Source of the DNA: Deuterostichococcus epilithicus
Taxonomy: Eukaryota > Chlorophyta > Trebouxiophyceae > Prasiolales > Stichococcaceae
Length of the DNA: 64,000 nucleotides
Assembly (NCBI GenBank): GCA_033439295.1
Contig: JAVTLE010000023.1
Span: 1,178,001-1,242,000 of the forward strand
Direction: 5' to 3'
Position numbers and translations under genes: made by a program. How positions within the stretch are numbered: the first letter of the stretch is position 1; each line of letters starts with the position of its first letter. Below the pieces are notes generated by a model. That model saw only the letters and a program-made list of their open reading frames with translations, searched no databases and was not told the origin of the DNA. Below, in pieces: positions 143 through 62,500 of this stretch.

Positions 143-3100
143 GCCGCTGCGGATGCGGGACGCGCAGTTCAGCAGCAAGGCATACGGCACGCACGAGTAC
201 AAGGAGGTGACCTGCGAGGGGCGCACCCAGTTCGACCTGCTGCTCGCCATCCAGCGCGACCACAAGCTGTCCTCCTACTCCCTCAACTCGGTGCGCGCGC
301 GCACCGCCGCTGTGCGCATGCGGCAGGCTGAGGAGTGGGGTCGTCAGATTGCCAACCTCGCCTGCGGCCTGGGCCGGGCTGCATGTGCCAACGAAGAAAA
401 TGAGAAGAAATGCTCCCAGATGACATGTACATAAGTATCATATTTCAAATCTACAGGTGTCGGCGCACTTCCTGGGTGAGCAGAAGGAGGACGTGCACCA
501 CTCCATCATCTCGGACCTGCAGGCCGGCAACGCCGAGTCGCGCCGCCGCCTCGCCGTCTACTGCCTCAAGGTGAAGCATCTCGGTTTCAAGCCAGCACTT
601 AAAGCCAGAGCCTTTTCACACTCGAGAAGAGACCTGAGTGCCGACGCTGCGCTCAGGGACACCTCCGACAACGCACCGCCTGCTCATACGCGAGCGCGGT
701 GGACAGGCGCGGCATCTAAGACACAGCTCAGGCTTCTCACTGCAAGCCTCGTGGCCTCAACCCTGCCGGACACAGCTGGTGGACAGGGTCATGTCCTTGT
801 TCGACTACCTGGAGATGGCATGCCAGAGCAGCCTCCAATGATGCTTCACTTGGTTTTTCCCGGTTGCACAGGATGCGTACCTGCCGCAGCGGCTGGTGGA
901 CAAGCTCATGTACATGTTTAACTACCTGGAAATGGCGCGAGTCACGGGCGTGCCGATGTCCTTCCTGCTGACCAAGGGCCAGTCCATCAAGGTCTTCAGC
1001 CAGCTGCTGCGCAAGGCGAAGCAAAAGAACCTCGTCATCCCCTTCGTCAAGGTACTCGGGGAAACCCCAAAAGCACATGCAGCAGCGAACTCGTCGCCCC
1101 TGACGACCGCACACCACTCATTGTTGGCAGAGCAGGGTATCTGAGCTTTGCGGAGTCCACACCTTGCCATTGGGCAATGCCACAGCTGCCTAGGAGCCTA
1201 TGCTACCGGGAGGGCTACAATACTGTGTGACTTTCTGCTCGCTATGCTGCAGCCACAAGGCGGCAACCCGGACGCCATCGGGTATGAGGGCGCAACGGTG
1301 CTGGACGCTAAGGTGCGACAAATGCTCCTGTCGAATGAGTCTTCGAATTCTGAGCCGGGACGGGTTGCCACGCTACTGGGTATCAGCTGCTTGCTGAGGT
1401 GCTGCGAACGCACCGACATTCAACTGCATTGGAATCGTCAAGCAAGCCTTTGATTGTTTTTGTTCTCACAATTCATGGCGCCCGGCACAGGTGGGCTACT
1501 ACCGCAACCCTGTGGCGACGCTGGACTTTGCATCGCTGTACCCCTCCATCATGATGGCGCACAACCTGTGCTACTCCACCCTGCTGCCGCCCGACGCGTG
1601 CGCTCCCTCCAGCATCCTCTCTCTGGCATCCTTCTCCGCAAGCAGCCTCCCGTTTCAGTGTGACAACGATGAATCTGAAACATACCTGATATCGCAGCTA
1701 TGCAGCGCATGACGCCCGGGCGCCGCAGACGCAGGCCCACCCTGCTGCAGCAGGCGTATCATCTGAATTTCAGCTATGTATTCATGTATCTACGTTTTTT
1801 CTCAAGAAAATGGACCGACCAGCAGTAGATCCCATCCCGCAGGCGGCATGTTCGGAACATTGGTGCCCTCCCGCCGCAGGGTGAAGAATCACGCGCCGGA
1901 GGACTACCAGAAGTCGCCGACCGGCGACTGCTTTGTGCGGCCGCACCTCAAGAAGGGCATCCTGCCTGAGATCTTGGAGGAGCTGCTGGCTGCCCGCAAG
2001 CGGTGCGCAGCCGTGCTATAGAGTTTCATCCATCGAAATGCTGCTCCTGAGGAAAGACATCGCAGGTAACCTGCTGCCTGACATTGTTGAGGAGCTGCTG
2101 GTTGCCCGCAAGTGGGGCGATGAGTTTGCCAATGTCTGCTTCCTGTGCCGCACTCGCACGCACCTGGTCAGCACCCCTGCGGAGAAGCATCCCTCCAAAC
2201 CACCTGGAGTAGCTGCTGGCTGCCGACAAGCGGTGCGGCTGCCGATTTGTGCCGGCTTCCCTTGAGCCCATGCGCGGGGCACATACGGCCATAAGGAGGG
2301 GCAACGGACCCTTGAAAACTATGCTTCGGTTTCGTCTGGTCCACACCTTAGTTTGCTGGTCTGAGGGCTCTGGGTGTTGTTTGTGCAGGGCGAAGACGGA
2401 CATGAAGAAGGAGACGGACCCCTTCAAGCTGGCGGTGCTGGACGGGCGCCAGCTGGCACTCAAGGTGTCCGCCAACAGGTGCGAGAAATGCAGACCATGC
2501 AACCCGCATGTGCAGCAGCGGCCTAGGAGAGGCCTGGCATCACCATCGGGTGTGGTTTCAAAGGCCTGCAGACGGATCTGTTTGCCCAGCTGCTGCAGAA
2601 AGGCGCCTCTGCGCAGAGCACCCTACACTGCTGTGCTCTGCTTGCTGTCCCAGACATGCCTGTCACGTGACTGACGACCAGCATGCAGCATTCCGGGCTC
2701 TGTTGGACCTTGAATGCAGCATGACTCCATAAACTCACACCCTGCAGCGTGTATGGCTTCACCGGCGCGACCATCGGCAAGCTGCCGTGCCTGGAGATCT
2801 CCTCCTCCACCACCGCCTACGGCCGCAACATGATCGACGCCACCGCGTGCGTCCTCTGTTGCTAGTGCCCCAGTCCAGTGCCCTCGACACCCCCCTGCCG
2901 TCAGGTCCCTCTGTCACAGCCGCCCTGTCCTTGGCCCCTTCTCGCTCTGGCCCAGTGACTCCACAACTCGCCTGTGTGCAATGTGCTGTGCTGCGGCGAT
3001 TCGAGATCATGACAGGTGCTCGTGCGAGCACTGCAGCAGCTGCAGCGCATATCGAAACTGGACTGCACATGTGTGGGCACCATTCACAAAAGAGGGCAAC

Positions 3101-6100
3101 AATGCGGCGAACTGGAGAAACTGCACAGCAGCCGCTTGGAATCCGCCATCGTCCTGCCTCACAACCGCTGTGCGGAGCGGCGGATGCGGCAGACAATCAT
3201 AACACCCATGCGTCTGAACCCAGTGCGGTGTTCACCGAAGCCCTGGCCTAAATCTTGACACGCAGGGCGGCGGTGCGGGCCAAGTATAACAAGGCCAACG
3301 GGTACGAGGCGGACTGCGACGTCATCTACGGTGACACCGACTCTGTGATGGTCAACTTCAAGGTAGGCCTTGCTCTTTCAGGTTGATTCATGCCAGACTG
3401 CCTTTCCGGAGGTCGATAGGTGATTTGTAGTCCTTGTCAAGGTCAATTGTAAGGTGTGTTGGGCAGCCAGATTCCGATGTCGCTGTCCATCCGCACGGGA
3501 GGCTATCGTGGATGCTGCGGGCGATTGCATGATTGTGGAGGCAATCACAGGAAACAGCAGGGCTGTAGGTCTGGCCCCCGCTGCACAGGTGTGGTCTCCA
3601 CATGGCGTCGATGAATTGTAGGTTTCGCACCAGCTGGACGACATGTCGCGTGCCATAGATTTGGGCAAGGGGGCGGCTCTCGGCCAGATGTGATTCTGAA
3701 AGTGTGTCTGGGACGGTGAGAACGATGGCAAACCCTGCTTCAGGTGGACGACATTGCGCGCGCCATGGAGCTGGGCAAGGAGGCGGCAGAGTTTGTGTCG
3801 GCCACCTTCATCAAGCCCATCCGCCTTGAGTTCGAAAAGGTGCGTCCGCGTTTGTGAAATGCTACATTGTCCACCAACATGTGCTGCGGCAGACTTCGGC
3901 AAGGCACGTTGACGGTTGCCGGGCTGGGAGTCTGCAGCGCAGGCTCTCCTGCAGTATATCAATTGCTGTAGTATGTTAGGGTACGGTTTAGGGTGTGAGT
4001 CGCTGCCGCCAGACTTGTGTCGCTCCTTGTGCTGCGGCCGCACAGGTGTGCTGCTCTTACCTGCTGATCAGCAAGAAGTGTCAACAGGCCCTGAGTCATG
4101 TTGAAGGAATTTCGATATCTGTGTCTTACCTTGTGTGTCAGTTGCGCAGGTGTACTGCCCATACCTGCTGATCAGCAAGAAGCGGTACGCAGGGCTGCTG
4201 TACACCAACCCGGACAAGCACGACAAGATGGACTCAAAGGCGCGCTTATCTTGGTTTTGCTTTCCTTTTCGTCATCGTTTCGCTCATTTCGCCATCGTCA
4301 GACCTCTGCAGGTTGCCAGGATGTCCACTGGCGGCTCTGCCCAGCACCTCCGCGCTCTACTCAAACAGTGGCGAACATGCGCCTGCCAGACTTTGTTGAA
4401 CGCCATGCCCCATCAAGCAAATGCCTTGGGCATGAACCACTTGGGAACGTACGCCGTGGCAGCCCGCCTGCGGTGCGGCAGCCCAGAAACCGTGCTCCGG
4501 TTCCCCGCAGCTGGCGCAGCTGGCGGCCTCTTTCTCCTCTGGGCAGTACATGGGCAGAAACGCAGCTGAACAGCCATGTCGGTGTCGCGCAGGGCATCGA
4601 GACGGTGCGGCGCGACAACTGCCTGCTGGTCAAGAACGTGGTCACGACCAGCCTGCAGAAGATGCTGGTGGAAAAAGACGTGGAGGGCGCGGTGGCATAC
4701 GTCAAGGGCGTCATCTCCGACCTCCTCATGAACCGCATGGACCTGTCCCTGCTGGTCGTCACCAAGGTGAGGCCTGCAGAATCGTGTACAGCGAGAAAGC
4801 AGTGAGCAATCTCAGGTTTGGTCAGAAAGAAAGTGGTGAGCTAAAAGCGCATGGTTGGCGTCGAGGGCGTCAACCCTGGTGTGCTCATAAACCGCATGGA
4901 TTTCCGCTGCTGGTCGTTCATCCCGGTGTGGGTCTGCAGGTTCTGAACGCTTCAGAATGTCATGATATCGCAATGAAATAAGGATAAACTGTGAAGGAGC
5001 AAGGCATCAAAGGCGGTACCTCCGGCCTGCTCATGAACCGCATGGACCGTTCGCTGCTTGTCAACATCAGGGTTGTTTTACCCTTCCCTATTCTTCTACA
5101 GGGCTCGAAATTAAGGCGTTTGACAGCCAAGGGGTGCGCACTGGGGCCGGCTAGGAGGTTGCAGATGTTCAGCCCGCAGCATTTCCATTTTTCTACCCTT
5201 ATAACAGTGTCTCCTGTTCGAATGGCAGGGCCTGACGAAGGCTTTTGACGACTATGACGCCAAGGGCGCGCACGTGGAGCTAGCCAAGAAGATGCTGAAG
5301 CGCGACCCCGCGACCGCGCCTACCATTGGAGACCGCGTCCCCTACGTCATTATCAAGGTGGGCACGCCCACACTGCTGCAGCGCGTCTCGTGATTCTGAG
5401 AAGCTTGTGGGAAGCGCTGGTCGGTAGGCAGTGGGTGATGCCCACTGCTGAACCCAGCAATGCTCACCAGTTTCGGTGCTGGATGGCTTGCAGCTTGTGC
5501 AGCAGGCACAAGCTGCGAGGCTGGGACTTCCGATCTATGCTTTTGTTCTCCTCAACCAAGCAAAAGGATCACCTCATGCACACCCAGACGTTACAGTGTA
5601 TAATTCAAGTACAATACAGCTGGCTGTGGGCGCCAAGACCCTGAGCAGCAAGTGGACGACCCATGTCAAGCGCCTGCTCATCGACTCCAGCACTACTTGA
5701 GCACCACCTGTCAAATCTGATGAAATAAATCACACTAAATGTCACCTTGTTCGTAACTTCGTATCTCAATCAACACACAGTCCTCCTCCGCAGGCGGCCA
5801 AGGGCGCAAAAACCTGGGAAAAAGCAGAGGACCCGATCTATGCGCTGGAGCACAACCTGCCCATCGACTGCCAGCATTACCTGGAGCACCACCTGAGCCT
5901 GCCGCTCACACGCATCTTCGAGCCCATCATGAAGAATGCCAAGGAGCTGCTCAACGGTGCGCAGCCGTTGCTCAGTTATTGCTCAACATCTTCAGTTCCT
6001 TCATGATGCTGTTTGGAGCACCTCCTGAGCCTGCCGCTAGCGCGCATCCTCGAGCCCATCACAAACAATGCCGAGGAGCTGCTCAGCGGTGCGCAGCCTG

Positions 6101-7814
6101 CTCAAAAACCGCTTGCTGCTTAGAAGTGTTCGATGCATGCTCAGTACCTACCTTGAATACGACGCTGCCCGGAGCGCCCTGGTGAAGGGAGCTGCCTGCG
6201 TCAGGCAGTGCCAGTGCGGGTACTAGCTTGCCGCAGCACGGCGGCCAATCCGGAGGCTGCTGCAATAGGAGCTCGGCGACAAATTCTGGCACATGTGTGA
6301 AACCCTGAAACCCTGCGCAAATCAATGGTGAACGCAGGCGCCCACACGCGGTCCATCGCGGTGACGACGCCGAGCAATGCGGCAGGCGGCATCATGAAGT
6401 TCGCCAAGAAGAAGCTGGCCTGCCTCGGCTGCAAGGCGCCCATCGCAACCGGCTCCCTATGCGCCCACTGCTCGCCCAAGGTGTGGCTTTTTGGGTTTAG
6501 GGTTTTGGAGTCGTCTCGGGGAGTTTGTCCCAAGAGTCCGCCATGAAGAAGCTGGCGTGCCTCAGCTGCCTGGCGCTCGCGGCGGCAGTCTCCCTGTGCG
6601 CACAATGCGCCCAAGGGTGCGGCAGTGTGCAGCCGGTCCGCCAAATTGCAGGACTTTCGCCTTCAAACAGGGTGTGGAGGCTCGCCAGCGCACCAGGCTG
6701 TACGAGTCTGGTATTCGGGGCGAACATCAGCACATAGTTCATTCCCTGCACACGCGCACTGTGCGGCTATGGCTTGGTTACATGCACTCTGCCGCGCCAG
6801 TCCTCTGCACCACCGACGCAAGCGGCGGGTGGTGGAGCTGAAGCATTTTGGCAGTGAGCGGCGCGGAAGCCACGAAACTGCAGACTAGATGCTGTGCATT
6901 GACCACGTCCTCGTGAACCGCATCTGTGTGAGCACGAGACGGCAGTGCCCCATGGCGGCAGCCTCACTCGTGTTGCAACGGAAGCGCCCGTCGGAACCAG
7001 CCCCAGCTTGTCTCTGAGACTTTTGCTTTCAGCCACCTCGTGCCGGTGCGTGCATGCAAAAAGGCGAAACAGGCGCACCAGCGCTGCACGGCGGCGAGCT
7101 TGCCTGTCGCTCTGTTGCAGCAGGACGACCCGTCAAACCTGTCTCAGCTGACCACTTAGTCGCTGCCGCTGCCCGTCCACAGGACGTGGAGTTGTGTACC
7201 AGCGCTCGATGGCGGCGCTCGACGAGCTGAAGCGCGCAGATATCGCCCACGACAACCTGTCCCAGTTCGCACCTACAACTTGTCGCCGGTGCGTGCGCGC
7301 AGGAGGCGGAGGTGTACCAGCGCTCCATGGCGGCGGTCAACGAGCTGGAGGGCCAGTTCGGCGCGCTGTGGACGCAGTGCCAGCGCTGCCAGGGCTCCCT
7401 GCACCAGGTTTGACTGCTCCTGAACCTCCTTTCTTGCTGCCAGATCGGCGCTCGCGGGCCGCCTGATCGCCCTCTGACAATTGTGCGCTCAGGATCTGGG
7501 CAGTGTGTCTGAGGGTTTGAGGGCAGCCGCCTCTGGGGCCGCAGCAGGAGACCAGCCCTGCTGCACGTGCCTGCGCCCATTGCTCCGTGCACGACTCGTT
7601 TTATGTGGTCTGTTGATGCTGCTTTGTGCTGACGCCAATGCTGTGCTGGTGCTGAAGCTGCGCCACCCTGCTGCAGCCATCCTTCTGCTAAACCCTGCAG
7701 GATGTGCTGTGCACCTCCCGGGACTGCCCCATCTTCTACCGCCGCAAGAAGGTGCAGAAGGACCTGGCCGAGGCGCACGGCGTGCTCAGCCGCTTCGGCG
7801 ACGACGACTGGTGA
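143..7814 (+). CDS. POLD1: DNA polymerase delta catalytic subunit, 5' partial
   Basis: Replicative family-B DNA polymerase (nuclear; lagging-strand synthesis with 3'-5' proofreading). Exons read as 143-290, 457-570, 872-1051, 1253-1312, 1491-1598, about 1887-2002, 2389-2478, 2748-2846, 3266-3362, 3744-3839, 4150-4239, 4593-4766, 5229-5357, 5794-5956, 6338-6480, 7303-7407, 7701-7814; phases agree throughout, giving about 675 residues. Seen: motif [11 protein letters not shown], motif B region [13 protein letters not shown] joined to VYGFTGA, motif C YGDTDSV, and a C-terminal metal module with two CX2C pairs (CLGC, CAHC; CysA) followed by CX2C and CX4C (CQRC, CTSRDC; the site that carries an iron-sulfur cluster in this family). 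The stop follows GDDDW. About 400 N-terminal residues expected from the family, including the start and much of the exonuclease domain, lie left of the window. One junction (4239/4240) uses a GC donor. Several introns hold relic copies of adjacent exons. Confidence 0.97.
773..819 (+). repeat. Intronic relic of POLD1 exon 872-1051
   Basis: About 47 bp matching 891-936 (the segment encoding [15 protein letters not shown]), with scattered substitutions such as FDYLEMA for FNYLEMA. It lies in the intron just upstream of the real exon, about 118 bp away. Confidence 0.85.
2056..2125 (+). repeat. Intronic relic of POLD1 exon 1887-2002
   Basis: Encodes [15 protein letters not shown], a decayed copy of [15 protein letters not shown] at the end of the exon just upstream. 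The matching real bases are about 1957-2002. Confidence 0.85.
2198..2237 (+). repeat. Second, more decayed relic of POLD1 exon 1887-2002
   Basis: A shorter copy of the same exon end (pattern ctggagtagctgctggctg then caagcggtgcgg). It has lost bases and carries an in-frame stop. Confidence 0.65.
3631..3678 (+). repeat. Intronic relic of POLD1 exon 3744-3839
   Basis: Encodes [16 protein letters not shown] against real [15 protein letters not shown] at 3744-3790. The cag before the exon is retained as part of the copied block. It lies 110 bp upstream of the real exon. Confidence 0.88.
4040..4080 (+). repeat. Intronic relic of POLD1 exon 4150-4239
   Basis: The block from the acceptor cag through the sequence encoding YLLISKK (4144-4188) is repeated upstream about 104 bp away, nearly identical over 25 bases. 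Confidence 0.9.
4239..4240 (+). other. GC-AG intron donor in POLD1
   Basis: The exon encoding KHDKMDSK ends AAG followed by GCGCGC. No GT in reach keeps the frame, and the next exon (4593, GIETVRRDN) joins in phase 0 as the family requires. Confidence 0.75.
4861..4920 (+). repeat. Intronic relic of the end of POLD1 exon 4593-4766
   Basis: Copy of the segment encoding [17 protein letters not shown], now with a frameshift and lost donor. It lies downstream of its source. Confidence 0.8.
5005..5067 (+). repeat. Second relic of the end of POLD1 exon 4593-4766
   Basis: Encodes [15 protein letters not shown], a better preserved second downstream copy of the same exon end. With 4861-4920 it makes a three-step series. 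Confidence 0.85.
5672..5711 (+). repeat. Intronic relic of POLD1 exon 5794-5956
   Basis: Copy of 5865-5905 (sequence for [14 protein letters not shown]). The copy has a one-base change creating TGA in the corresponding frame, so it is not a usable alternative exon. Confidence 0.82.
6014..6100 (+). repeat. Intronic relic of the end of POLD1 exon 5794-5956
   Basis: 87 bp copy of 5879-5966 lying directly downstream. It still reads open ([19 protein letters not shown] against [19 protein letters not shown]) and keeps the splice-donor-like end ggtgcgcagcc. This is the best preserved relic in the gene. Confidence 0.92.
6542..6617 (+). repeat. Intronic relic of the POLD1 CysA exon
   Basis: Encodes [21 protein letters not shown], copied from [21 protein letters not shown] at 6408-6484. 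The four cysteines are still recognisable. Confidence 0.9.
7181..7232 (+). repeat. Intronic relic of POLD1 exon 7303-7407
   Basis: Copies the acceptor and exon start ([13 protein letters not shown] against [13 protein letters not shown]), 120 bp upstream of the real exon. Confidence 0.9.
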
Positions 7815-7849
7815 TGAGATGGCCAATTTGGGTATGACAACTGGCAAAA

Positions 7850-7889
<40 letters not shown>

Positions 7890-23280: not shown

Positions 23281-23302
23281 ATGTCGCTGGAGGCCCGTTT
23301 GA
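23270..23302 (+). other. Overlapping upstream ORF at the NOT1 start
   Basis: ATG at 23270 in the context ccaacATGgc opens a ten-codon frame ending TGA at 23300-23302. It overlaps, out of frame, the NOT1 start at 23281, whose own context (gtgtcATGtc) is weaker. It could reduce initiation at the main start by leaky scanning. Whether it is transcribed is not known. Confidence 0.4.
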
Positions 23303-38300: not shown

Positions 38301-41300
38301 CGCGCCGCGGCTGCCGGCGGAGCTGTCTGGCTGGTTTGGCCGCGCCGAGGACGACCGCAAGTACCAGCGCGATGTCGGTGCGACAATGTTCTCCCACCAT
38401 TTCGGATTTCTCAACTTGATTTCACATTGATTGATCTGGCTGGTTCGGCCGTGCCAAGGACGGCCGCAAGTACCAGTCCACACTGGTGCGACAACTGTCT
38501 CAAAGTTTCTCGGAAGGATCACTCGAGTTGAATGTCTATTGAATGATCTGGCTGGGTTTGGCCCTGCCGAGGAAGCTGGCAAAGTACCAGTGCGCCATTG
38601 GTGCGATGTCCGAACTCAACAGTTCGAACAAGGTTGAATACAGATGTCATTCATCGGAACAGTGAATGCCGAGTGTTGGTGCGAATGCCATTCTGGTGTG
38701 ATTTCTCACTCGAGGTGTTCGATCAGATGCAAAAGCGCTGTAGGACGGCTCATTGCCTACCAATATGGGCTGACCAATCTTGCAGCTGGCTAGCCCCACC
38801 CATCGCTAGAGCTCAAGCATTCCACCCTAGAAGCTGGATCAAGCCAGTTGTCTGCAGGACAGGGCTCACGTAGTTGCCGCTTCAGCACCCACACTCACCC
38901 TCGACTCGTCCCATTGGTCGCTGTGTGGCGCTGATGAGCGCTACTCAGTATGGGCCCTGTTCGTAGAGTAGTCGTGGGAAAGGTTTCCTGCCCAGCTCAA
39001 TCCACGACGCGCTTGCCCGAGGCTTCGTCTGAGTATGTGTGTGGCCCTCAACGTCCCGTAACTCGAATCGCCTGCAGGTGAGGCGCTGGTACAGGGCGCT
39101 GCTGTGGCTGTTCACACCTGGCGGATGCCATTTGGTCATGCTCATTGCTATTGTTCACTTCCAATCTCACACTGTTCATGAACATCACAAAGGACTCCCT
39201 TGGAAATTGGCAGGCGAGGCACTGGTGCAGGGCGCTCTGATGCGGTAGCTCGGAACTGGGCGCGCAAAATGGTCCGCAACTTGCGGACGCCATCAGGTCA
39301 AGCTGCAATGCTTCAATGAAGCGGCAGAGATTGCAGTTCAAGCTCATACACCCAACGGGTAGCACCCATACTTGCAGGCGAGGCGCTGGTGCGCGCGGCG
39401 CTGCTGCGGCTGCCAGAGCTCGATGCGCACCTCGCGGGCGCCATCAGCATGCGCTCCGCAGGCGCCACCGAGCTGGCGGTGCACCTCCTGCGCGCCGCGG
39501 CGCAGGACCCATCCCCGCCGCTGGCCGGCGCGGACCTGCCGTCCAGCATCGACGTGAGTGCCGTCCGCTTTTCGTTTCAAATATGAGACTTCAGCCGCCG
39601 TCCAAAGTCTTCTGTCCCTGATTGACACTGAGGCGCCTGCTGCGCGCCCGCCGCGCATTGCCCCGCCCCAGCATTGATGTGTGCGCATCCGGAATTCATG
39701 ACCAGCAGCCCAAGCTTCAGCTCGCTGAGACCAGAGCCGCCCGCTGCTGGCAGAGGCATGCTGCAATGTTGCCGCCTTCCAGCGGCTGTTGCCGGATGCG
39801 TTTTGCGTCGCACAGGGTGCTGCTCTCGAAGGGAGTCTGGTGAACCATCGGGTGCTAGGCATGACACTTGTTGGTTCGGCCTAGGGCAAATCCCACCATG
39901 ACATCTGCCGTCAACAGGTGCTGGCCAAGCTCGCGGCGCAGTCGAGCGGCGGCGCTCCGCTGCTGGCGCTGCTCGAGTCCGCCCGCGCGTCGCGGGGCCC
40001 GGTGCAGCGCGGACCAGCGCAGGCGCCGCCGCAGGACCAGGGCCCGCCGCCGCCGCGGCCGGGCAGCCGGCAGGGGCTGCCGCCCGACCCCAACGAGCCC
40101 GCCGGCCTGCGCGAGCAGGTGCGCCGTGGAGGGTGTAGGGTTCAGAGCCGCTCCCTGCCAGAGACGCCAGCGGCCACACCAGAGCATGCAGTTGCTCAGG
40201 AAGCTGCACAGCCATGCAAATCTGATCGATGTCCTGTGGCTCCAGCTGCCCGGTGCTGCTGCTGCGCGGGTCCAGGGCCTTGTAGGTTGTATCCCCGGGC
40301 TCTGGTTCTCGCCAAGCAGCACCTGGGCAGGGCACCCCTGCCGGCATGCCTGAGCAACCCTGCCAGGCTTCTGGCCCGTACATGCAGCGTTCTCGTGTGC
40401 CAGCGCAAGCCCTGGCGGCGCATCGTCCAGCCCCTCATGCTCTCGTCGCCTGATGCATCATTTCCCCATAGCAACCTCCTCCCCTGAACCCTATAGCATC
40501 CCCCCGCGTCGACCTCCTCCCTGAACCCTATAGCACCATATCAGGCTGCTCCTGCGTATTCGAACAGTCGCTCGCTGCGCACAGGTGGCGGTACTGTTCG
40601 ACCGCTGGGCGGCGCTCGTGGAGGAGTCCCCGGGCGAGAAGGTGCATGCGCCTTTCGTGTCCCACCTGCAGCAGGCTGGCTTCCTCAAGGTGGGCCGCCC
40701 CTCCTTTGCTGGCACAGCGTCTTGTCCCTTGTTTTAATCAAAAAAGGTACTATTCTATCAAAGCCGCAGCGATGTCATGCACGGTTCCTCCCTCGTTCGT
40801 GTGCACGCAGCTTGCAGAGGCGTGCGCACGTCAAGCACTGCTCCTGTCGACAGCATCAACCAGGGCAGTCCGCAGGACATCGCCCTCTTGCCATGGCACC
40901 TCCTCCGTATCAGCGCTGTCGCCAGCCCTGATCCGAGGGGAGGCATGCCTCGTAAATGGGCGGCAAAGCTGCTAACCGCCACACATTGCCTTCTGTTCAT
41001 CAAATACATGCGCCCGGGGGATGACGCCAGGGGCCGCTTCCTGCGGGTGCTGCTGCAGCTGGTTGCTCCCTCCCCGGCGAGGCAAAGCTTCATGTCCCTG
41101 TTGCTCAACACACTTTTGAGCTACCATCCAAGGGCGATTACGCCATGGGCCGCTTTCCTGCGGGGGCTGCTGGAGCTGCGGGTTGTGCCAGGAGCAAATC
41201 TCCTGGCAAAGGCAATGCATATGTCTCTTTCGCGCCGTCCCGCTCAACACACCGTTACCTTCAACACATTCTCCTGCTCAGGGAGACGACGCCACAGACC

Positions 41301-44300
41301 GCTTTCTGCGGGTGCTGCTGGAGCTGGCGGTCGCGCACTGCCTGGCGTCGGAGGCGGGTGCCGGCGGCGGCGCCCCCCCTGGAGCGGCGGCCGCCGCCGG
41401 TTCTCCGCGGGGCGCTATCCTTCCTGGCNGTGGACGCCGCGGCCCGCCTGCTGGTCACGCTCATCAGCGCGCACGGCGGCGGCCCGCCGCTGCTCGCCCG
41501 CGCGCTGTCGGTCATGACCACAGGTGAGTCTGGGTCGCGTGCCTCGGAGGAGACCTCCTTCTTGTAGACAGGTGTTCAGCAGAAAGGCTCTGGTCACGCT
41601 TATCAGCGTGCACGGCGGCGGCCTGCCGCTGTTGGCGAGCTCGATGTCCGCCATGACCACTGGTGGGTGGGTACTAGCTTTTCGGAAACGAGGAAGTTTG
41701 TCAAGCCTTTCGAATGGAAGTCTGGGATGGGTGCGAGGCACTCGCGAGAGGATGCCTGCCGCTGCTGTACAGTATTAGTCACTGGCAAGTCGGGACCTGA
41801 GTTGCTCTACAGACGTCAATCGGTGCAGCTTCAGATTGCGTTCCAGCCTCGTCTGGGGCTGTGAGCTGCTGCCATTGACTGGGGCGTCCGTCATGCGCAA
41901 TATTTCGGCCCAGAGTCTTGTGACACGGCCGGATGGCACCCGATACGGCAGGGCTGCGCGCCTGTGTTCTGTGCAGACCATGGCCCAGGCAGCTGCGATG
42001 GCCCGTCAATTGTTGTGAGAGCCGTCAGTTGGCGCTGGAGCGCTCCGTGCCATGGTATGCCGCGAAGCCGCGTCCAGCCCGACTCGTGCATGGTGTTTAC
42101 ATGCTCATTTGGGTGCACTCTCGAGGCCTGTGCTGCTGCTCACCTGCCCCTCACACGACATCGGCATTCCACATCTGTCGCTGCCCACTGAGCGGCCCCG
42201 CCCCTCCAGCACAGGCCCACGAGGCGTGCAAGACGGCTTGCAGAAGCAGGGCTGGCTAGAACTATAGACGGGCACCGCAACATGCTACTGGTCCTGAGGT
42301 TGGTAGTGTACCAACGGACAATACTGCGCACATAGTACTCTCTGGGAGGAGCAGGACCAAGCCAAGCCAAGCTGCAGGTCAAACCCATCTCGGCAGCAAC
42401 ACTGGCGAACCTGCATCTCCGCCCCGACGACCGTCAGTTCGCCCCTGCGCAGTGCTGCGGCGGGATGCGGAGGAGCGCGGCGAGGCGTTCAACGCGCGGC
42501 CCTACTTCCGCCTGTGTGTGGGGCTCATTAGCGAGCTGGCGCCGGTGGCAGGCGGCGAGGACGCGGCCGGCTTCGGCATGCTGTCTGCGCTGGCGAGCGC
42601 GTTCCACGCGCTGCAGCCGCTGAGAGTGCCAGGCTTTGCCTTCTCCTGGCTGGAGCTCATCAGCCACAGGTGGGACCCTCCTTGAGGGTTTGTCAGACGT
42701 CGGGAACGATGAAGCCTCTTCAAGCCTGCACTGGTCCAGTCTGAGTATGTTCGGGGAACAGGCCTGTGTTCATGGCTTGTATCCATGCTGCCAGAGAGCT
42801 CCTTGCATCGAAGCCTTCGTGTGGGGCTGGACTGCCGTCATCCAGCCTGGTGCCCTCCTCCATCCCGCAAGCGCCGCTACTGCGAGCTCACGGCCCCGCC
42901 ATGTCCCGACCCCGTGACCAGGGCCCCCGCTGTATGCAGGCACTTCATGCCTGCGATGCTGATGTACCCCGGCAACCGCGGGTGGCCGGCCTTCCAGGGG
43001 CTGCTGCGCGGCCTGCTGCGCTTCCTGGAGCCCTACCTGCGGAACGCGCAGCTCACGGAAGCCATCCGCCTGCTGTACAAGGTGTGGTGGCCGGCAAGGC
43101 GCCTGCTTGTTTTCCTTTCGTTTGGCTTTGTTTCCTCCCCGATAGTCCAGTCTTGATTGCGCACAGCGCCGCTGAGTGGCGCCATGCGCCTGCTGCACAA
43201 CATGCGCACGAGGTGCTGCTCCTCCTGTCAACCTTGCATCCCTTCAGTCTTCCGAGCTCTGAGGCATGCAGCAAGATGCACCAATGTTTGGAGTATTCCT
43301 GAGGTGTGTACGCGGCGGCAGGCAGTAACTGTCGAGGTTGTGCTTGTCTGTACCTGCCTTCCTCAAGCAGTCCACCGTTGGGTGCCCCGCTTGGCAGCAC
43401 CTTGCAACGTATGCGGCCCGCCAGTGCACTGCAGTTTGGCTGCTTGTCGTCGTGTGCTGGCACTGGCGCAGCAGTCCTGGTGAGGACGCTGCACCGTGCT
43501 CTGTTGGCCAGAGCAGCCACACTGCCCTCACCAAATCCGAATGCACCTCCAGAAGCACCCTCTGGAGACTTTGTCATGGAGACTCTGCACAATCGTCGGT
43601 CAAAATGGTCACACTGCCAGAAGCCTGGTCAAACTCTCAGCTCTCGCACACACATGTACACATGCTTATCGCCCCGTGCGCGCGCGCTTCCGCAGGGCAC
43701 GCTGCGGGTGCTGCTGGTGCTGCTGCACGACTTCCCAGAGCTCCTGTGCGAGTACCACTTCGGGCTGTGCGACTGCGTGCCGCCCAGCTGCATCCAGATG
43801 CGCAACCTGCTGCTGAGCGCCTTCCCTCGGGCGATGCGCTTGCCCGACCCCTTCACCCCCAACCTCAAGGTGCACACATTACGCTACCTTCCACTCCAAC
43901 CTGTTCCGTTCAGTCCATTCCATTCTTCATTCCCTAACAACTGTATCTAGTATGACAACCTGACCTTGCAACCCCTGTATGAAGAGTCTCCGAAGTCTCA
44001 CTGTCGGCTTGACCAGCCTGCATGCCTGTCGCCGGGAAGCTGGGCTCATTCCGTCCGGCCTGGCCGCCGCACAGCCGGGCCAGGGCACCGCAAATTGTAG
44101 GCCGCCTTGCTTGCGCGATTAGCCCGCTGAGCGGCTGCCAGGCACAGCGACCTCTGGTGGACACGGACCCTCCTGCTGTCATGCTCCTGTGCGCATCATC
44201 TGCTCGATCTCTGCACATTCCAAGTGCACCAAGCGCGTCTCTCAGCCCGTGGGCATCGCTCGTTGTGATGGTCCGCAACTCTCGAGCCTTGCCTCCGTCC

Positions 44301-46284
44301 TTCCGTCTTGCTAGCTGCGGTTGCGAGCCAGTGTCAAGGCACAGCTGGCTTGCTGCGGCAGCGGCTCTGCCTCGAAGTTGGCGCGGCCATTGCTCGCAAG
44401 CATTCAGGACTCATGAACAACATGCCTCCTATCCCTGAACCCGCAACCGAACCTCCTGCACGAGGTCGCGTGCTGCCGCGCTTTGTGCTTCCATGCCGAC
44501 ATCTTCTTGTGAAGCTGGCGATACCACAATCACGAATCGCAAGCACGCCTCCCGATGATGCTAAACCCTACCTATACCCGCAGGTGGACCTGCTGCCGGA
44601 GATCGCGCACCCGCCGCACTTCCAGCCGCACCCCGATTCTCTGCTGGAGCGCGCCCCCGGCCTCAAGTGCGCCTGGATAATTTGTCAATGAGAATGCCTG
44701 TTGTCTGCCAGACACAGGCGTGCAACAGCCATGCAGCCAGCCGCGGCTGTGTCAGAAAACTCATCTCCTGCCTGTCTTTACGGTCTGCCTCCTCTGTCGC
44801 TGCAACCCACCGCCACCATGCATGCGACCTGTGACGTGCCGCCTGCCGTATCCAGCTTTGAGGATGACTGCTCATGACAATTCCTCAAACCGACTGCAGG
44901 GCCGAGGTGGACGGCTACCTGGCCAGCCGGGGCCCGGTCGCCTGGCTGGGCAGCCTGCGCGGGCGGCTGCTGCTGCCGCCGGGCGAGGTGCCGGTGGCCG
45001 GCACGCACTACGACGTCCCCCTGCTCAACGCGCTCGTCTTCTACGTCGGCATCCGGGTACTGCTCTTTCGCCCCCTGCGCTGCCTGCTCCGCGCTGCTTC
45101 CCCTTGCATCCTGCTTTGGTTCTGCGGGTGTTCCGGATATTGCGGCACAAACGAGTTCAATCCACCCTGTCTTCGAGCCATCGTGGACCACTATCCCGGC
45201 ACCAGGCAGTGACAAAGCCAAGAGGCAGAGCACTGATGTGTTGGAAGGGGAATGGCGCGCCGCAGGCGATTGAGGCGGCCCAGGGCGCGGGCGGCTCTGC
45301 CTCGGCGCCATCACTGGCCAGCCCCGCCATGGACGTCTTCACCCGCCTGGCATCCGACCTGGACACGGAGGTCTGTTTCGGTTTGTGGGGTTTGCGGGCT
45401 TCGACGCCTTCTGCTGAACAGTGTCGGGGGGCGCACGCCCGTCTGTTGCTGGTCAGGAGGAAGCAGGTGGCATGGTCGCACATCGATTGTGCGGCATCGC
45501 CTTTTGAGCCCCGCAGCATCACCGCCACGCCCTCCTGGCGTGTTTGCTGCCCGTGGAGCCGGCTTGGACCCTGGTCTTGCTTCTGCTTGTTGGCGCGTCA
45601 GTCAACACTGCGGGACCTGCCGCCGGCACCGACGCTGGTCGTCTCCCAACCCACGCAGGGCCGCTACCTGTTCCTCAACGCGCTGGCCAACCAGCTGCGC
45701 TACCCCAACAGCCACACGCACTACTTCTCCTGCGTCCTGCTGTTCCTGTTTGCGGAGGCGGGACAAGAAATCATCCAGGAGCAGATCACGCGTGTGCTGC
45801 TGGAGCGGCTCATCGTCAACCGGCCCCACCCCTGGGGCCTGCTCATCACCTTTATCGAGCTCATCAAGAACCCGCGGTGCGCCCTGACATCACATGCCCC
45901 TAATCAGATGAGACGCTGCACTCTTCTCCGCATGAATGACCAGCGGGGCATGGTGCTCAAGCGCACAAAGTCCAGGAGCACAAGTTGTGCACTGTTGTTC
46001 AAGTGGCCATGAGCATCCACCTGGCACTTTGGGCATATCTGGCTGCCTGGTCACACGCTCATGCACACAACTCAATCTGCACACAAGTGACCTCACCTAC
46101 TCAAGCGCTTCCCTCCCCTCATGCGCGACGCAGGTACAGCTTCTGGACGCACGCCTTCACGCACTGCGCGCCCGAGATCGACCGCCTGTTCGAGAGCGTT
46201 GCACGCAGCTGCATGGGCCCCGCGGCGCCGCCCAAGCCCGACGACGAGCTGCAGCACGCGCCCGAGCCCGTCCGCGCGCAATAG
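23281..46284 (+). CDS. NOT1: CCR4-NOT complex scaffold subunit NOT1 (CNOT1)
   Basis: Scaffold of the CCR4-NOT mRNA deadenylase. About 38 exons, about 2,320 codons, close to the family's 2,300-2,400. Exons: 23281-23379, 23593-23890, 24026-25104, 25307-25468, 25793-25909, 26180-26287, 26527-26646, 27333-27446, 27939-28091, 28558-28764, 29199-29363, 29918-30084, 30374-30563, 30931-31059, 31731-31900, 32078-32165, 32481-32672, 33100-33316, 33646-33782, 34207-34314, 34493-34597, 35394-35540, 35960-36091, 36450-36636, 37337-37459, 38098-38377, 39378-39553, 39918-40118, 40585-40689, 41282-41523, 42453-42669, 42940-43081, 43696-43869, 44584-44666, 44900-45056, 45266-45370, 45659-45876, 46134-46284. 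Seen: [16 protein letters not shown] (N-terminal HEAT region), [11 protein letters not shown] and [13 protein letters not shown] (MIF4G-like middle), [12 protein letters not shown] and [18 protein letters not shown] (CAF1-binding part), [12 protein letters not shown], and the conserved C-terminal Not1 domain with [31 protein letters not shown] and [13 protein letters not shown]. Ns and one N-linked frameshift occur in exons. A further exon near 36790 is possible. Confidence 0.96.
25909..25910 (+). other. GC-AG intron donor in NOT1
   Basis: Exon 25793-25909 ends CTCCAG followed by GCACGT and joins in phase to exon 26180 ([12 protein letters not shown]). Confidence 0.75.
26421..26478 (+). repeat. 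Intronic relic of NOT1 exon 26527-26646
   Basis: Encodes [21 protein letters not shown] against [22 protein letters not shown]. Nearly identical over 40 bases, about 112 bp upstream of the real exon. Confidence 0.93.
26652..26701 (+). repeat. Short direct repeat in a NOT1 intron
   Basis: The block ggtaggaactgggagtagg occurs twice, about 30 bp apart, directly after the donor of exon 26527-26646. Confidence 0.85.
27213..27270 (+). repeat. Intronic relic of NOT1 exon 27333-27446
   Basis: Copy of the acceptor plus the exon start ([15 protein letters not shown]). The upstream intron text (cttggtcctgtc) is also repeated, so the copied unit spans the junction. Confidence 0.85.
27820..27870 (+). 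repeat. Intronic relic of NOT1 exon 27939-28091
   Basis: Copy of 27939-27990 (real reading [15 protein letters not shown]). The copy reads [14 protein letters not shown] with a frameshift. Confidence 0.85.
29063..29100 (+). repeat. Intronic relic of NOT1 exon 29199-29363
   Basis: The copy gcagacagagcacccgaggc matches the acceptor and start of the real exon (TEHLRQAD), 130 bp upstream. Confidence 0.8.
29762..29822 (+). repeat. Two-unit direct repeat in a NOT1 intron
   Basis: Units 29762-29790 and 29794-29822, both beginning ggctgccctcgtt and ending gtggggccaga. Not derived from an exon I can identify. Confidence 0.85.
31603..31672 (+). repeat. Intronic relic of NOT1 exon 31731-31900
   Basis: Copies aatcgcaggagcccaa plus the exon start (real [17 protein letters not shown]) 118 bp upstream. 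The acceptor is intact, but the reading frame is broken by substitutions and an indel. Confidence 0.92.
32368..32416 (+). repeat. Intronic relic of NOT1 exon 32481-32672
   Basis: Copies the start of the exon encoding [15 protein letters not shown]; the copy encodes [15 protein letters not shown] with an indel. About 110 bp upstream. Confidence 0.85.
32672..32673 (+). other. GC-AG intron donor in NOT1
   Basis: The exon ending RNLGLQ stops at CTGCAG followed by GCATGG. Joining to 33100 gives [18 protein letters not shown], as expected for the family. Confidence 0.75.
34028..34120 (+). repeat. Junction-spanning tandem duplication at NOT1 exon 34207-34314
   Basis: A block from intron sequence (cgcatggagggaatccagtc) through the acceptor into the exon start (atcatcacgccggtc) is repeated with period about 105 bp. 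The second copy (34133-34224) contains the real exon start. The relic keeps a full acceptor, then diverges after the first 15 exon bases. Confidence 0.93.
34675..34718 (+). repeat. Intronic relic of the end of NOT1 exon 34493-34597
   Basis: The block ending cagctgctgcagg matches the exon end QHLRQLLQ, including the donor region. First of two downstream copies. Confidence 0.65.
34804..34855 (+). repeat. Second relic of the end of NOT1 exon 34493-34597
   Basis: Encodes [11 protein letters not shown] against [11 protein letters not shown], followed by the donor-like ggttgg. Better preserved than the copy at 34675. Confidence 0.82.
35301..35345 (+). repeat. Intronic relic of NOT1 exon 35394-35540
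   Basis: Copy of 35424-35468; the block cacggcagacaacctggacc is nearly identical to the real sequence for TADNLDL. It lies about 123 bp upstream. Confidence 0.88.
35888..35955 (+). repeat. Tandem repeat of about 26 bp at an acceptor
   Basis: Two full units and one partial unit of the type tccctgaatcgctgtctgga lie directly before the acceptor of NOT1 exon 35960-36091. Confidence 0.85.
36091..36092 (+). other. GC-AG intron donor in NOT1
   Basis: The exon ending ALSPHQ stops at CATCAG followed by GCGCGC and joins in phase to [15 protein letters not shown] at 36450. Confidence 0.7.
37108..37255 (+). repeat. Two intronic relics of NOT1 exon 37337-37459
   Basis: Copies near 37108-37140 and at 37212-37255 of the exon start (real [12 protein letters not shown]). 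The second copy includes a full cag acceptor and is nearly identical over 40 bases. With the real exon they form a series with 105-125 bp spacing. Confidence 0.85.
37541..37595 (+). repeat. Intronic relic of the end of NOT1 exon 37337-37459
   Basis: Copy of 37408-37462 (real [17 protein letters not shown]); the relic still encodes [17 protein letters not shown] and lies 133 bp downstream. Confidence 0.93.
38068..38083 (+). repeat. Interstitial telomere-like motif
   Basis: ccctaaaccctaaacc, two units of plant/green-algal type TTTAGGG on the opposite strand, in a NOT1 intron just before the acceptor at 38098. Single TTTAGGG-like motifs also occur near 3985-3994 and 6493-6502. Confidence 0.8.
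38433..38635 (+). repeat. Two-step ladder of relics of the end of NOT1 exon 38098-38377
   Basis: Copies 38433-38543 and 38544-38635 repeat 38325-38432: exon end (real [15 protein letters not shown]) plus donor plus intron start. They read [13 protein letters not shown] and then a shifted [13 protein letters not shown]-type frame. Each unit is about 110 bp, so the repeat unit clearly crosses the exon-intron boundary. Confidence 0.94.
39073..39110 (+). repeat. First relic of NOT1 exon 39378-39553
   Basis: caggtgaggcgctggtacag repeats the acceptor and exon start (real [12 protein letters not shown]) about 304 bp upstream. Confidence 0.85.
39210..39300 (+). repeat. Second relic of NOT1 exon 39378-39553
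   Basis: caggcgaggcactggtgcag plus a decayed remainder ending gcggacgccatcagg, matching the exon as far as AHLAGAIS. Contains an in-frame TAG. Confidence 0.85.
39650..39692 (+). repeat. Intronic relic of the end of NOT1 exon 39378-39553
   Basis: The block around ccagcattgatgtgtgcgc repeats the exon end and donor region (real DLPSSID then gtgagtgcc). Confidence 0.65.
40476..40536 (+). repeat. Direct repeat in a NOT1 intron
   Basis: cctgaaccctatagca occurs twice (near 40483-40498 and 40519-40534), with cctcctccc-like flanks. Confidence 0.85.
41014..41189 (+). repeat. Two relics of NOT1 exon 41282-41523
   Basis: Copies 41014-41070 ([15 protein letters not shown]) and 41129-41189 of the start of the exon (real [15 protein letters not shown]). 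The intron text caacacac..t between units is repeated too, giving a ladder with 115-150 bp steps. Confidence 0.92.
41589..41668 (+). repeat. Intronic relic of the end of NOT1 exon 41282-41523
   Basis: Encodes [15 protein letters not shown] against real [15 protein letters not shown]. 80 bp, about 85 percent identical by eye, 135 bp downstream, and extends into the donor region. Confidence 0.95.
43165..43207 (+). repeat. Intronic relic of the end of NOT1 exon 42940-43081
   Basis: Copy of the segment for [10 protein letters not shown]; the relic reads AMRLLHN. Confidence 0.7.
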
Positions 46285-55659: not shown

Positions 55660-56199
55660 GTGTCAGATAATCACTTGATGCTGCCGAGCGGAATTTTAGG
55701 ATTGATGACCAAAGTCTGCTGCCGTGGTGTCCCTTGATGGTGGCGTGCAGATTCGACAAGGCGTTGTTTACGTTTCACAACACGTTGTACCTCAGCTCCC
55801 GAGCGATGATTACAAGTGTGTCATCGATCGTCACCGCAAGCCGCTATGTTGCTGTGTCATTGAACTGCTGCTCTCGGCGTTCTCAAGAACGTTACAGGGG
55901 CGGTGACAATACGACACCCCGTCAAAACACCTTGTCCAAGAAAGCCCTGTTTTTGCCGGATCATGGTGCAGCAACTTGTCCATGTGTGGACGAACTTCTG
56001 CAGATGCCTGACGAGCCAGAAATATCACATGTAGTTTTTTTTATGCACCGCGTTGTCGTTACTGGTTGCTGCGCTACTAGTGCGGCAACACCCCACTGAT
56101 GCAGCTACGGTGCATGATGCGCAGCGCTGCCAGCGGGATCTTCCAGGGTGCTTCCAGCTCGATGTCTGGCTGTAGACATCAAGCACCGCTAGGTGCTAA
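55660..56199. promoter_or_regulatory. Intergenic and upstream region of the Sec14-like gene
   Basis: 540 bp between head-to-tail minus-strand genes. Presumably the Sec14-like promoter plus the glycosyltransferase 3' UTR. Nothing else recognised. Confidence 0.5.
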
Positions 56200-58806: not shown

Positions 58807-59554
58807 GTCAGATCTTTAGCAGGACGCAGGCCCGACAACCCTGGAAAAACCAGCGAAACCAGCTGGTGCGGATGCTGTTGCAACGATGGTTTGGCCCCGA
58901 TCGACCTTCAACTCGCCAGTACACCGCTGCAGATCCTTGAACGAGGCTGAGAGGAGAATCCCAAATATTGCTGCTGGTGGACCGTCGATGCTGCTCAGCG
59001 ACGCTGCTGATGAGCTCAAATCTTGAAGATTTCAGCATAGGGAGGTCCGACAGAGACAGTCGGCCCAGGGTTTTGCAGGCCTGTGGCAATTTCCCCTCAC
59101 TTCGTGCTCTTAACACGACGGCCAACGATGGAAACGAACTCAGAGGACGAGCTCCAAAGCGCAGGCAGGTGACATGCACTCAAGCGGGGTTGGCCAAGCA
59201 TCGACACAACTAACGAGGGCAACTCTTTTGAGGGCTGACAGGAGGGGTGGGGTGTGAAAGAGCGGCGGCCCACAGAACACCGTCAGGGGCACAGGGGGGG
59301 CAGCGAATGTCAGGCCTTATGCTGATCCAGCTTGAGCACATATGTGCCACTGTCTGATGCCGCAGGGTTTTGGTAAACACTTCGGCATTGTGCGCCGCCA
59401 CCCTCTCAAACTTCAGCAAGGACAGCCAATTGAGACAGCGGCACGCGCCGTCACAAAGCGCTGCGACATTGCCCTCAGACAAAATCCGCGATGAGCCAAA
59501 CAAATATCGGTAAATCTGCACTTTCTGTTGTGCAGCCGATTCCCCTGCTCGACA
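58807..59554. other. Intergenic region
   Basis: Lies between the start of the glycosyltransferase and the stop of the CrtI-like gene, both minus strand. No supported feature. Confidence 0.5.
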
Positions 59555-62500
59555 TCACACGGGCGCAAAGTCCGCTGCGATGTGCTCATCCGCTAGCGCT
59601 GCGCTGATCATGACCAGCGGCACGCCATTGCCCGGCCGTGTGGAGGCGCCCACGAAGTACAGACCGCGCAGCTGCCCGTCGCGGATCGATGGCCGGAACA
59701 CCGCCAGCTGGTCCAGCCCATGCGACAGGCCGAACACTGCACCGTGCTCCACCCCGTAGCGCTCCCGCCACTTGCAAAGTGAGAGGAGACCGTCAGCTCA
59801 GAGTTTGTGATTCTTTTCGGGAGCATACAGTGTCGCAGGCTGTGCGACAGGCCGAACATGGTGCCATGCCCACCCCATAACGACTCCGTGGTCGCTTGAG
59901 AATACAAGAGATGCTGGGCTCTCAGCGCGGCTGTCATTTCCAGCACAGTAATCATGAACAGGGCTAGTTGTTCCAGTCCCTGTGACAGCCCAGAGAAAGC
60001 GTTGCGATGTAGGTCATGCAGGGCGGGCTCAAGCTGCGCACAGTCGCCCTGCTACTCTTAACTATTGCCACTCAGGGCCCACCGGCGGCACCAAGCTTCA
60101 AGCAATGGAAAGTACAAGTGCGTCCCAGCGCTGCAGCCATTCGTTCGTCCACCATCATCTCGACCCCAGATCGTTGCGGAGCAGGCACACATGCAGTGCG
60201 TGACTTCAAGACTCGACTCACGACGCACCTCTGCCGGCGAGATGACCTGCTCGTGCACCACATGCGGCTCTAGATCACCGATGCCGGCGTCCGCAAAGGT
60301 GCGGAAGATCGCGCGGCGGCCCGCCTCGATCAGGTCGCTGTAGTCGTCTGCGGCGGCAGCAACACGCTCCCCTTCAGCAGCATTGTCATGCTGATCGCTG
60401 CCATGCTAATCGCTGTCCGACCAGAGCCGGAAGGAGGTTTGCCTTCTCCGGACGTCATGGGCAAGCTTGCAGATGTGCAGACACAATTGGCACAGAAGCC
60501 AATGAAGCATGCAGCGATGCTGGGGGGTTCCATGCGGCAAAACTGTTCCAGCGGCTGACCTGTGCCTGCCTCCTGCATGTTGGCTACCGGCAGCAGCGCC
60601 ATGACGCTGTCGCCGTCGGCCGGCGCCGCTGTCGGGTCCGTGCGCGAGGGCACATGCACATAGAAATTGGGGCTCTGCAGCAGCTCCCCCACGGTGCGAG
60701 CCCGCCGCCAGGCCGCCTCGCCCTTTTCTGCGGTGCGGAAGCCCGGAGCGCTCAGTTCGGACTGCAATCAAGCTTTGATGGGGTTAGAATTTGGGAGTAA
60801 CCTCAGCCAGCGGTGCGCACTCGTGCCCAAGCCGCCTCGCCCTCGTTTGCAGCGCAGGAGCACGAGGCGCTCACGGCGTGCGCAGGTGGGAGCCTGCCAG
60901 TTCCAGGCGGGCTGTTGGCAGCAGCTGCTGCGGCACTGGCGTGGCGAACGAAAGATAGCAAAAAGTCAATCCAAAGCGGCACGCCTCATGCCGCGTACAC
61001 TGCGCAGCAAGGCGCTCACGCATGCAGCTGGAATCAGTGCAAGGAACATCTGAAGGTTGGCCTCCTGGGTCTGCAGGGCAGGTGACACAATGCACCTCCA
61101 CACCCGGCAGCGAGGTAGTCTGCAGGCCTCGAAGGGCAAGCAGCAGCAGCCCACCTGACAGGAAGACGTTGTGGTGCTGCAGCCGGTCGAACCGCTTCCC
61201 CACCGACCAGTTGTAGGCTATGACAGCGGCGCTGAACTTTTTGGCGGACACCTCCTTGTGCTTCCTGCTGCCGTAGTCATTGTGTAACAACTGGTACCCC
61301 TTCGGCAGGTCCCGGTTGGACACCACGACATCAGCCGGCAACCGCTCCCCGGAGGCGAGCGTGACGCCCAAAACCCTGCCATCGGCGGTGTCGATGGACG
61401 CCACCTCGGCACCGAACCGGAAGGTCGCGCCGCAGGCAACCGCCGCGCTCAGCAGGCCGCTGACCACCTGATGCCCAGTTGGGCACATGCTTGCCTGTTG
61501 TTTTCTTCATACTGCAGCGTTTTGCATGGACTGCCGTGCACGTGTACTATCCATGTGGAGGACAGCACATCAAATCTCAGACGCGCGTGGGAAAGTCACA
61601 TGGGTGGTCCGCACCTGTTTGAAACCTCCTATAGGATACCTGCAGACGCAGCGCGACCGCCTTGTCAGGAAAAATTCCAGAAAATAGCCAGGATGCAAAC
61701 ATCCATTGCTGGTAGCCAGTCTCATCAACGCGCAACCCCCGGCATCAGGATCCCAAGAAATGCGTGCAGGTGAGACGCGCACCAGACGCCGTCAGTCAGC
61801 TCTGTGCCTGCCAGCAGGCTGTACACTCCCGGGGCGGTCTGCGGGCTGAGGCCCACGTACAGGTCCTGGAAGGAGAACAGGCCCCGCAGCCGCCAGTCGT
61901 TGGGGAAGTACTTCCTCAGCCTGCGGCAGCGCGCGCGTACGAAGGGTCTCAGCATGACCCCGCCTTCACACCAGTTGCGGAGAGCACATGGCAAGGCGGG
62001 GTCGAAAACCGTCCATATCAGGCTGCCAGTGTGGATGGCGTGTGGGGTGCTGTACAGTGCCGAAAAGACATCCTCACATGTTTTCGTGCGGCCCCAGGAT
62101 CTGCGGCAGCGAGATGTCGCGCAGCGACGGCAGCACACTCGCCAGCGTGCGCGGCAGCTTGGCGACGTCCGCCAGGCTGGCAAAGTCCTGCTCGATGAAG
62201 TTGGGCAGGCCCATGCGCAGCGCGGCACGCGCTTGCGCCAGGAACGCCAGGTACTGCTGACCTGCGGCCCAGGTCATGTCGACGCATGAGCACGCATCGC
62301 AGGTTGACTTGCATGTAAGCATGCGCGTGCACTATGCTGAAACAACAGCTGCAGCATCAGCGGTCTCCAGCATGCTGCAGCTCTCGACGGTTGCCCCATT
62401 TCCTCGCGGGGTAGGACGCCGCTTTGCATGATGCTGCGCTCAAAGGACAGGATCGGATCTCTGGGGGATTTAGGGGATTTGGGGTTTTGCACCTGCGCCC

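Follow-up and report, generated by a model that had tools for sequence, protein, structure and literature searches.

Exon copies in the introns of POLD1 and NOT1

The locus studied here is a stretch of 64,000 nucleotides of the green alga Deuterostichococcus epilithicus (C19:1178001-1242000, in a genome of 46.8 Mb in 21 contigs), hereafter called the window, in which introns contain relics, i.e., decayed copies of the edges of adjacent exons. Exons were called with a small hidden Markov model gene finder, seeded with Pfam DNA polymerase B exons and trained on the window and 22 stretches of 10 kb. The splice signals that it learned, a CAG/GTGCG-like donor and a YGCAG/G acceptor (slash, splice junction), are presumably of the green-algal type. 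Two gene models carry most of the copies:

153..7811, + strand: model of the 3′ part of POLD1 with 17 exons, from the gene finder and alignment to the DNA polymerase delta catalytic subunit
23281..46281, + strand: NOT1 gene model (CCR4-NOT subunit 1, E = 3.7e-156), 46 exons with 16.3 kb of intron, from the gene finder

The POLD1 model aligned with the DNA polymerase delta catalytic subunit 6s1m_A over 624 residues with few short gaps (E = 5.1e-253). As both models align to known proteins, their exons are identified independently of the repeats.

Comparison of the window with itself by BLAST (E ≤ 0.01, search space set to 1e8, distance between the paired segments, or lag, <400 bp) revealed 37 direct pairs. 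Twenty-nine joined an exon edge to an intron (11 in POLD1, 17 in NOT1, and 1 in the CrtI-like/glycosyltransferase 49 [GT49] region), 7 joined two intron segments, several of these being second or third copies of a single exon, and 1 was non-genic. An earlier reading made from the letters alone (the sequence-only reading) had put the number of partial exon copies at 30 or more, close to that found, and the three copies that it singled out as still open were all present (6014-6104, 87% identical to 5882-5974; 37539-37594, 84% to 37405-37460; 41590-41668, 84% to 41451-41529). It had also described the copies as having the orientation of their source, and the only two inverted matches in the window proved to be palindromes matching themselves.

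The same was seen outside the window. Of 20 10-kb stretches sought, one per contig at a fixed position, 17 were obtained, three contigs being too short. These yielded 34 direct pairs at lags <400 bp, 13 at longer lags, and 11 inverted matches, 10 of which were self-palindromes, whereas Markov-shuffled versions gave 3 matches of any kind. We also aligned each exon edge to its own intron at score cut-offs of ≥32, ≥36, and ≥40, with reverse-complemented exons and introns swapped between loci as controls. This junction survey covered the window and the 22 stretches, i.e., 284 kb, 23 loci, 581 predicted introns, and 1162 junction sides. At score ≥32, 52 junction sides in 45 introns matched, against 1 in the reverse-complement and 0.6 in the swapped-intron control; at score ≥36, 36 sides in 33 introns matched, against none in either control. 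Such an alignment had been proposed as the check on the sequence-only reading, and its result is far beyond chance. Throughout the window, the 17 stretches, and the survey, copies adjoined their source in the same orientation. Chance similarity is thus ruled out by the three controls, and inverted duplication by the palindromic nature of nearly all inverted matches. When the 78 pairs at lags <400 bp in the 284 kb were labelled with the gene models, 55 were exon-intron, 13 exon-exon, 9 intron-intron, and 1 non-genic. The copies in the window are as follows:

762..819, + strand: start of exon 872-1051 copied upstream of it at lag 118, 81% (self-BLAST)
2074..2119, + strand: end of exon 1880-2002 copied downstream of it at lag 112, 85%; further copy at 2205-2237
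3631..3677, + strand: start of exon 3744-3839 copied upstream of it at lag 110, 83%
4016..4078, + strand: copy of the intron end and start of exon 4150-4239, upstream, lag 104; a rare case with a partly matching intron half
4859..5073, + strand: end of exon 4593-4766 copied twice, at 4859-4939 (lag 159) and 5007-5073 (lag 305)
6014..6104, + strand: copy of the end of exon 5794-5956 and 18 bp of intron, lag 132, 87%
6535..6616, + strand: copy of the end of exon 6338-6480, lag 137, 77%
7180..7235, + strand: copy of the start of exon 7303-7407, lag 120, 84%, intron half partly matching; weaker copy at 7042-7096
26397..26470, + strand: copy of the exon 26527-26646 region, lag 119, 84%; model uncertain, with a predicted 39-bp exon across the end of the copy
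27818..27864, + strand: copy of the start of exon 27939-28091, lag 121, 83%
31603..31666, + strand: copy of the start of exon 31731-31900, lag 119, 83%
34016..34221, + strand: complete tandem unit, mostly intron, period 107, 82%, the duplication visible over its whole length
34680..34852, + strand: end of exon 34493-34597 copied twice, at 34680-34730 and 34807-34852
37335..37385, + strand: copy of short exon 37215-37265, lag 122, 88%
37539..37594, + strand: copy of short exon 37403-37459, lag 134, 84%
38435..38606, + strand: end of exon 38098-38377 copied twice (lags 109 and 221); the intron half matches too, giving complete tandem units
39073..39245, + strand: start of exon 39378-39553 copied twice, at 39073-39110 (lag 300) and 39210-39245 (lag 164)
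41016..41178, + strand: start of exon 41282-41399 copied twice, at 41016-41062 (lag 265) and 41131-41178 (lag 149)
41590..41668, + strand: copy of the end of exon 41431-41523, lag 139, 84%
60811..60873, − strand: edge of exon 60560-60727 (CrtI-like/GT49 region) weakly copied at lag 119, 73%

Four genes had been said to contain such copies. In the junction survey relics were present in 8 of 16 introns of POLD1 and 12 of 45 of NOT1, but the claim nearly fails for the CrtI/GT49 region, where 1 of 16 introns had a relic at score 32 and none at 36, plus the one 73% pair (60692-60754/60811-60873). It fails for the MscS-like gene, in which the survey found relics in 0 of 14 introns and self-BLAST only a 20-bp pair (47699/47782). 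The other genes of the window were likewise without relics (two TauE-type genes, 0 of 24 introns; CRAL-TRIO, 0 of 9; gene at 8553, 0 of 6; small gene at 12053, 0 of 4). Nine of the 23 sampled loci had at least one relic, including loci outside the window, which agrees with a genome-wide process as far as a sample of only about 0.3 of the 46.8 Mb goes.

Of the nine proteins predicted in the window, four were compared with Pfam and gave TauE, a mechanosensitive channel, CRAL/TRIO, and an amine oxidase joined to glycosyltransferase 49. The last is a model at 56203-62946 with an amine-oxidase (CrtI-like) part and a GT49 part, probably two genes fused by the gene finder. Genes at 13633-17014 and 18349-22775 are tandem paralogs of the TauE/SafE (sulfite exporter) type, with exon matches at lags of 4.7-5.4 kb and the Pfam assignment on the first only. 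Among the predicted introns of the sample, 84 of 581, one of them in POLD1, start with GC instead of GT; some models may be wrong, and the share is high if they are right. Predicted exon pairs alike at lags of 113-139 (L021:4197-4389 and 5632-5787; L024:5026-5217) are perhaps copies still read as exons or true internal repeats. The window contains twelve non-ACGT letters (10532-10549, 24783, 24875, 36584-36590, 38263, and 41429).

Geometry and decay of the copies

The 52 matches had lags of 83-305 bp, and the usual distance of 100-150 bp given by the sequence-only reading holds, with 37 of them at 95-155. At score ≥40, 31 of 33 copies lay ≤12 bp from a splice junction (43 of 52 at score ≥32), with 15 of the 33 downstream and 18 upstream of the source exon. 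In the 31 junction-abutting copies, which were also used for the tests of the intron half, the exon part was 31-83 bp long. For the 26 of these with lags <200 bp, the lag was 125.6 ± 18.3 bp, the lengths of copied block and spacer compensating each other; a lag this narrow arose in 0 of 20,000 permutations, and P was 0.015 when only the exon part was used. Of intron, the unit contained at least 37 bp in all 26 cases and at least 51 bp in 25 of them. This minimum suggests a filter by which splicing would remove units with too little intron, because such a unit would leave the retained exon edge without a complete splice signal. At least seven exons had two copies, and complete tandem units that include intron were found at 34016-34221 and 38326-38606 of the window, L010 4909-5066, and L021 9178-9469. 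In the spacer between exon edge and copy at L026:5084-5221, nested inverted repeats are apparent by eye; this spacer occurs once in the genome.

Exon and copy differed by 0.127, 0.130, and 0.202 at codon positions 1, 2, and 3 (36 relics, score ≥36), and 14 of the 36 relics had a frameshifting gap. Both the frameshifts and the position pattern are as expected for a copy that drifts freely and neutrally beside a constrained exon, and the codon-position differences bear out the earlier proposal that one exon copy stays functional while the other decays.

The reading that we favor, with somewhat better than even confidence, is an old and mostly finished wave of short tandem duplications (unit of about 125 bp, SD 18) across exon-intron junctions, after which the redundant copy drifted neutrally. 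In each event 31-83 bp of exon edge and at least 37 bp of adjoining intron would be duplicated head to tail as one unit, presumably through end joining at paired nicks or staggered breaks 100-150 bp apart. Of the two exon edges, one would keep a working splice site and remain in use, and the other would turn into intron, which would grow by one unit; the intron half would belong to the unit in most cases, units with too little intron would be removed by splicing, and the wave would be mostly over by now. Tandem duplication is favored because the lag is constant with compensating block and spacer, the copies abut junctions in a single orientation, and some units are complete. The position of 31 of 33 copies at a junction supports a junction-spanning unit in particular, since such a unit must touch the junction and a random template need not.

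Three other explanations find less support. In the Rogers model, part of an exon is tandemly duplicated and one of the duplicated units becomes a new intron. Intron 37266-37402 may be such a case, as it is 137 bp long with a copy at lag 122, but most relic-bearing introns are far longer (see below) than the lag near 125, and copies lie beside existing junctions with more intron beyond. This makes the model highly unlikely here. An assembly artefact, by which diverged alleles or read errors were placed side by side, could be invoked from the ambiguity codes of the window, twelve in all; the differences are however mostly substitutions with few gaps, the lag is narrow, position 2 is under no constraint, and the introns beside the copies do not match as alleles should, so we regard this explanation as extremely unlikely. 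Finally, mobile intron-like elements (introners) are reported from some algae. The copies derive from the adjacent exon, though, and the two stretches searched in the whole genome, a 66-bp intron and a 132-bp spacer, each occurred only at their own locus. On this basis a transposon or introner family was rejected, and we give introners almost no credence.

The intron half and the age of the duplications

Several observations weigh against the tandem-duplication reading. If exon edge and intron were duplicated together, the intron half should have decayed only about twice as far as the exon half. In the 31 relics, however, intron homology amounted to 19%, against 94% in simulations at the age read from the exon half. 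Intron-side gapped scores did exceed the null on average, in favor of tandem duplication (8.4; null, 6.6; SD, 1.45; n = 31), but clear homology at score ≥12 was seen in only 3 of 31. Overall, duplication of the intron half together with the exon half is clear in about 5 of 31 relics, the mean score lying above the null but well short of what the clock predicts. With an older age (about 0.25 per lineage) the intron scores would be accounted for, because only about 20% of exon copies would then still be detectable, but the predicted mean copy identity is 0.80, whereas 0.838 was observed. A higher indel rate seems an unlikely cause of the lost intron homology, as the base-rate simulation (four rows) already has 1.4-1.6 gap columns per relic, against an observed 39 in 36. 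Plain neutral tandem duplication at the exon-derived age is ruled out by the 19% against 94%, and the older age rescues it only in part. As to the coding sequence, synonymous changes exceeded those of a one-branch neutral model (72 versus 50, P = 0.001), and stops were slightly few (2 versus 5.1 expected, P = 0.12). As to distribution, 14 of the 23 loci were without any relic, and the relics were concentrated in certain genes (0 of 2000 permutations). Much of this clustering may reflect the greater ease of detecting relics of conserved exons: four Cpn60/TCP-1 chaperonin genes elsewhere, chosen for their conservation, all carried relics (5 of 41 introns, at least one in each gene, lags of 72-115).

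The synonymous excess and the shortage of stops, together with splice-site letters kept in some copies, would suit copies in use as alternative or mutually exclusive exons under selection. Against this, positions 1 and 2 drifted equally and the many frameshifts do not fit in-frame maintenance; most copies comprise only part of an exon, and POLD1 needs none of them for a model that aligns with few gaps. Such use is very unlikely as a general explanation. The excess of synonymous change likely comes from the exon's own drift at synonymous sites, and some copies may have been used briefly.

As the intron half is mostly unrecognizable, tandem duplication with neutral decay needs a further assumption. 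Either copying was in part limited to the exon edge, or the intron halves were erased faster (e.g., by selection against duplicated splice signals), or conversion kept the exon halves alike. The first and last of these lead to an alternative in which the intron received a copy of about 40-90 bp of exon edge and hardly any or none of the adjoining intron, through templated repair, filler repair, or RNA/cDNA-templated repair, or in which similarity was kept by conversion. Homology usually ends within about 20 bp of the junction, in most of the 31 relics no further than in shuffled controls. At L010, a 39-bp segment is 95% alike in copies 2 and 3, whose flanks are unrelated (hand-set block limits there are a few bases out of register, so that 35/50 understates this BLAST match), and among the seven two-copy exons no pair of copies had significant homology in the 60 bp flanking the block on its intron side. 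Random templates would nevertheless include mid-exon sequence, yet nearly all copies are at a junction; they have a single orientation, their block and spacer compensate to a constant lag, and some relics contain the whole unit. We therefore consider exon-limited copying unlikely, but worth keeping in view. A specific form of it, which we hold to be rather doubtful, is copying bounded by the splice junction, in which exon edges without adjoining intron would have been copied repeatedly 100-150 bp into the intron, e.g., by spliced-RNA-templated repair or exon-to-copy conversion. If true, this would be a splicing-linked source of intron sequence.

Under tandem duplication, the age of the copies can be compared with a steady supply, modeled by weighting simulation rows over ages equally. 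A steady supply predicts that about 40% of detected copies are ≥90% identical and about 80% have a recognizable intron half (score ≥12); the observed values were 3 of 33 and 3 of 31. Of the 9 intron-intron pairs, two were complete intronic units (those at L010 and at window 34016-34221), the others including second or third exon copies. The process is mostly old, since young copies and intron-only pairs are few, and the same shortage rules out a steady supply. The earlier description of the process as ongoing is thus not supported, and its statement that copies differ in decay stands with the proviso that very few are young. A younger event is the L021 unit (C15:309178-309469), an exon-plus-intron tandem of period 133 that is 92% alike overall; its 66-bp intron is 97% alike between copies and found at a single locus in the genome, and its exon parts differ more.

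Intron growth and comparison with known systems

Intron length is usually explained by transposons and small insertions and deletions. Introns with relics were longer than those without, as the sequence-only reading implied (medians of 443 bp, n = 45, and 229.5 bp, n = 536), relics being present in 8 of 399 introns under 300 bp and 37 of 175 longer ones. Longer introns offer more room for matches, yet chance matches amount to about 1 in 1162. Even relic-free introns had a median of 258 bp in relic-rich genes versus 216 in relic-free genes (P = 0.002). The duplications do not, however, explain the bulk of NOT1 intron as had been supposed: its 17 recognized copies, each about 120 bp long, add up to roughly 2 of the 16.3 kb. 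Older copies that are no longer detectable could add more. Overall, the earlier observation is partly confirmed and its interpretation partly supported. In several genes and contigs the record is still readable, and it connects the growth of introns with a single class of short duplication at splice junctions. Constraint on the exon makes each relic a datable copy of its source, and the tempo of intron growth can therefore be measured within one genome. Exon-like stretches in such introns may also be relics rather than missed exons.

No description of junction duplication as a general mode of intron growth was found in the literature searched, where subscription journals were thinly covered, which is weak evidence of novelty. 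Paired-nick experiments in plants are reported to have given tandem duplications. Among the closest known systems is the potato RdRp gene, in which a tandem duplication likewise crosses an intron-exon boundary and another, of 83 bp, is intronic (Ma, Lan and Niu 2016, PMC4974935). The potato case is one recent event that created a new intron, whereas the alga has dozens of old, decayed copies in existing introns. Similarly, in the system outlined in a section of a review (PMC3443670), exon copies are put into an intron by short tandem duplication; there a new intron is made inside an exon from an AGGT-bearing segment, whereas in the alga existing junctions are used and introns lengthened. Break repair in rice produces local insertions of 10-1000 bp that are tandem, partly tandem, or derived from within 200 bp of the break (Vaughn and Bennetzen 2014, as cited in PMC7407515). 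Local duplication is thus shared, but the rice insertions are recent and natural and, in the cited passage, are not linked to junctions or presented as a source of intron length. Small tandem duplications also arise at break ends via CST and Pol alpha-primase (Schimmel et al. 2021, PMC8355091), a repair route that yields the same kind of product in work whose subject, in the parts concerned, is break repair and neither introns nor algae. By analogy, the same break-repair chemistry may have been at work in this genome.

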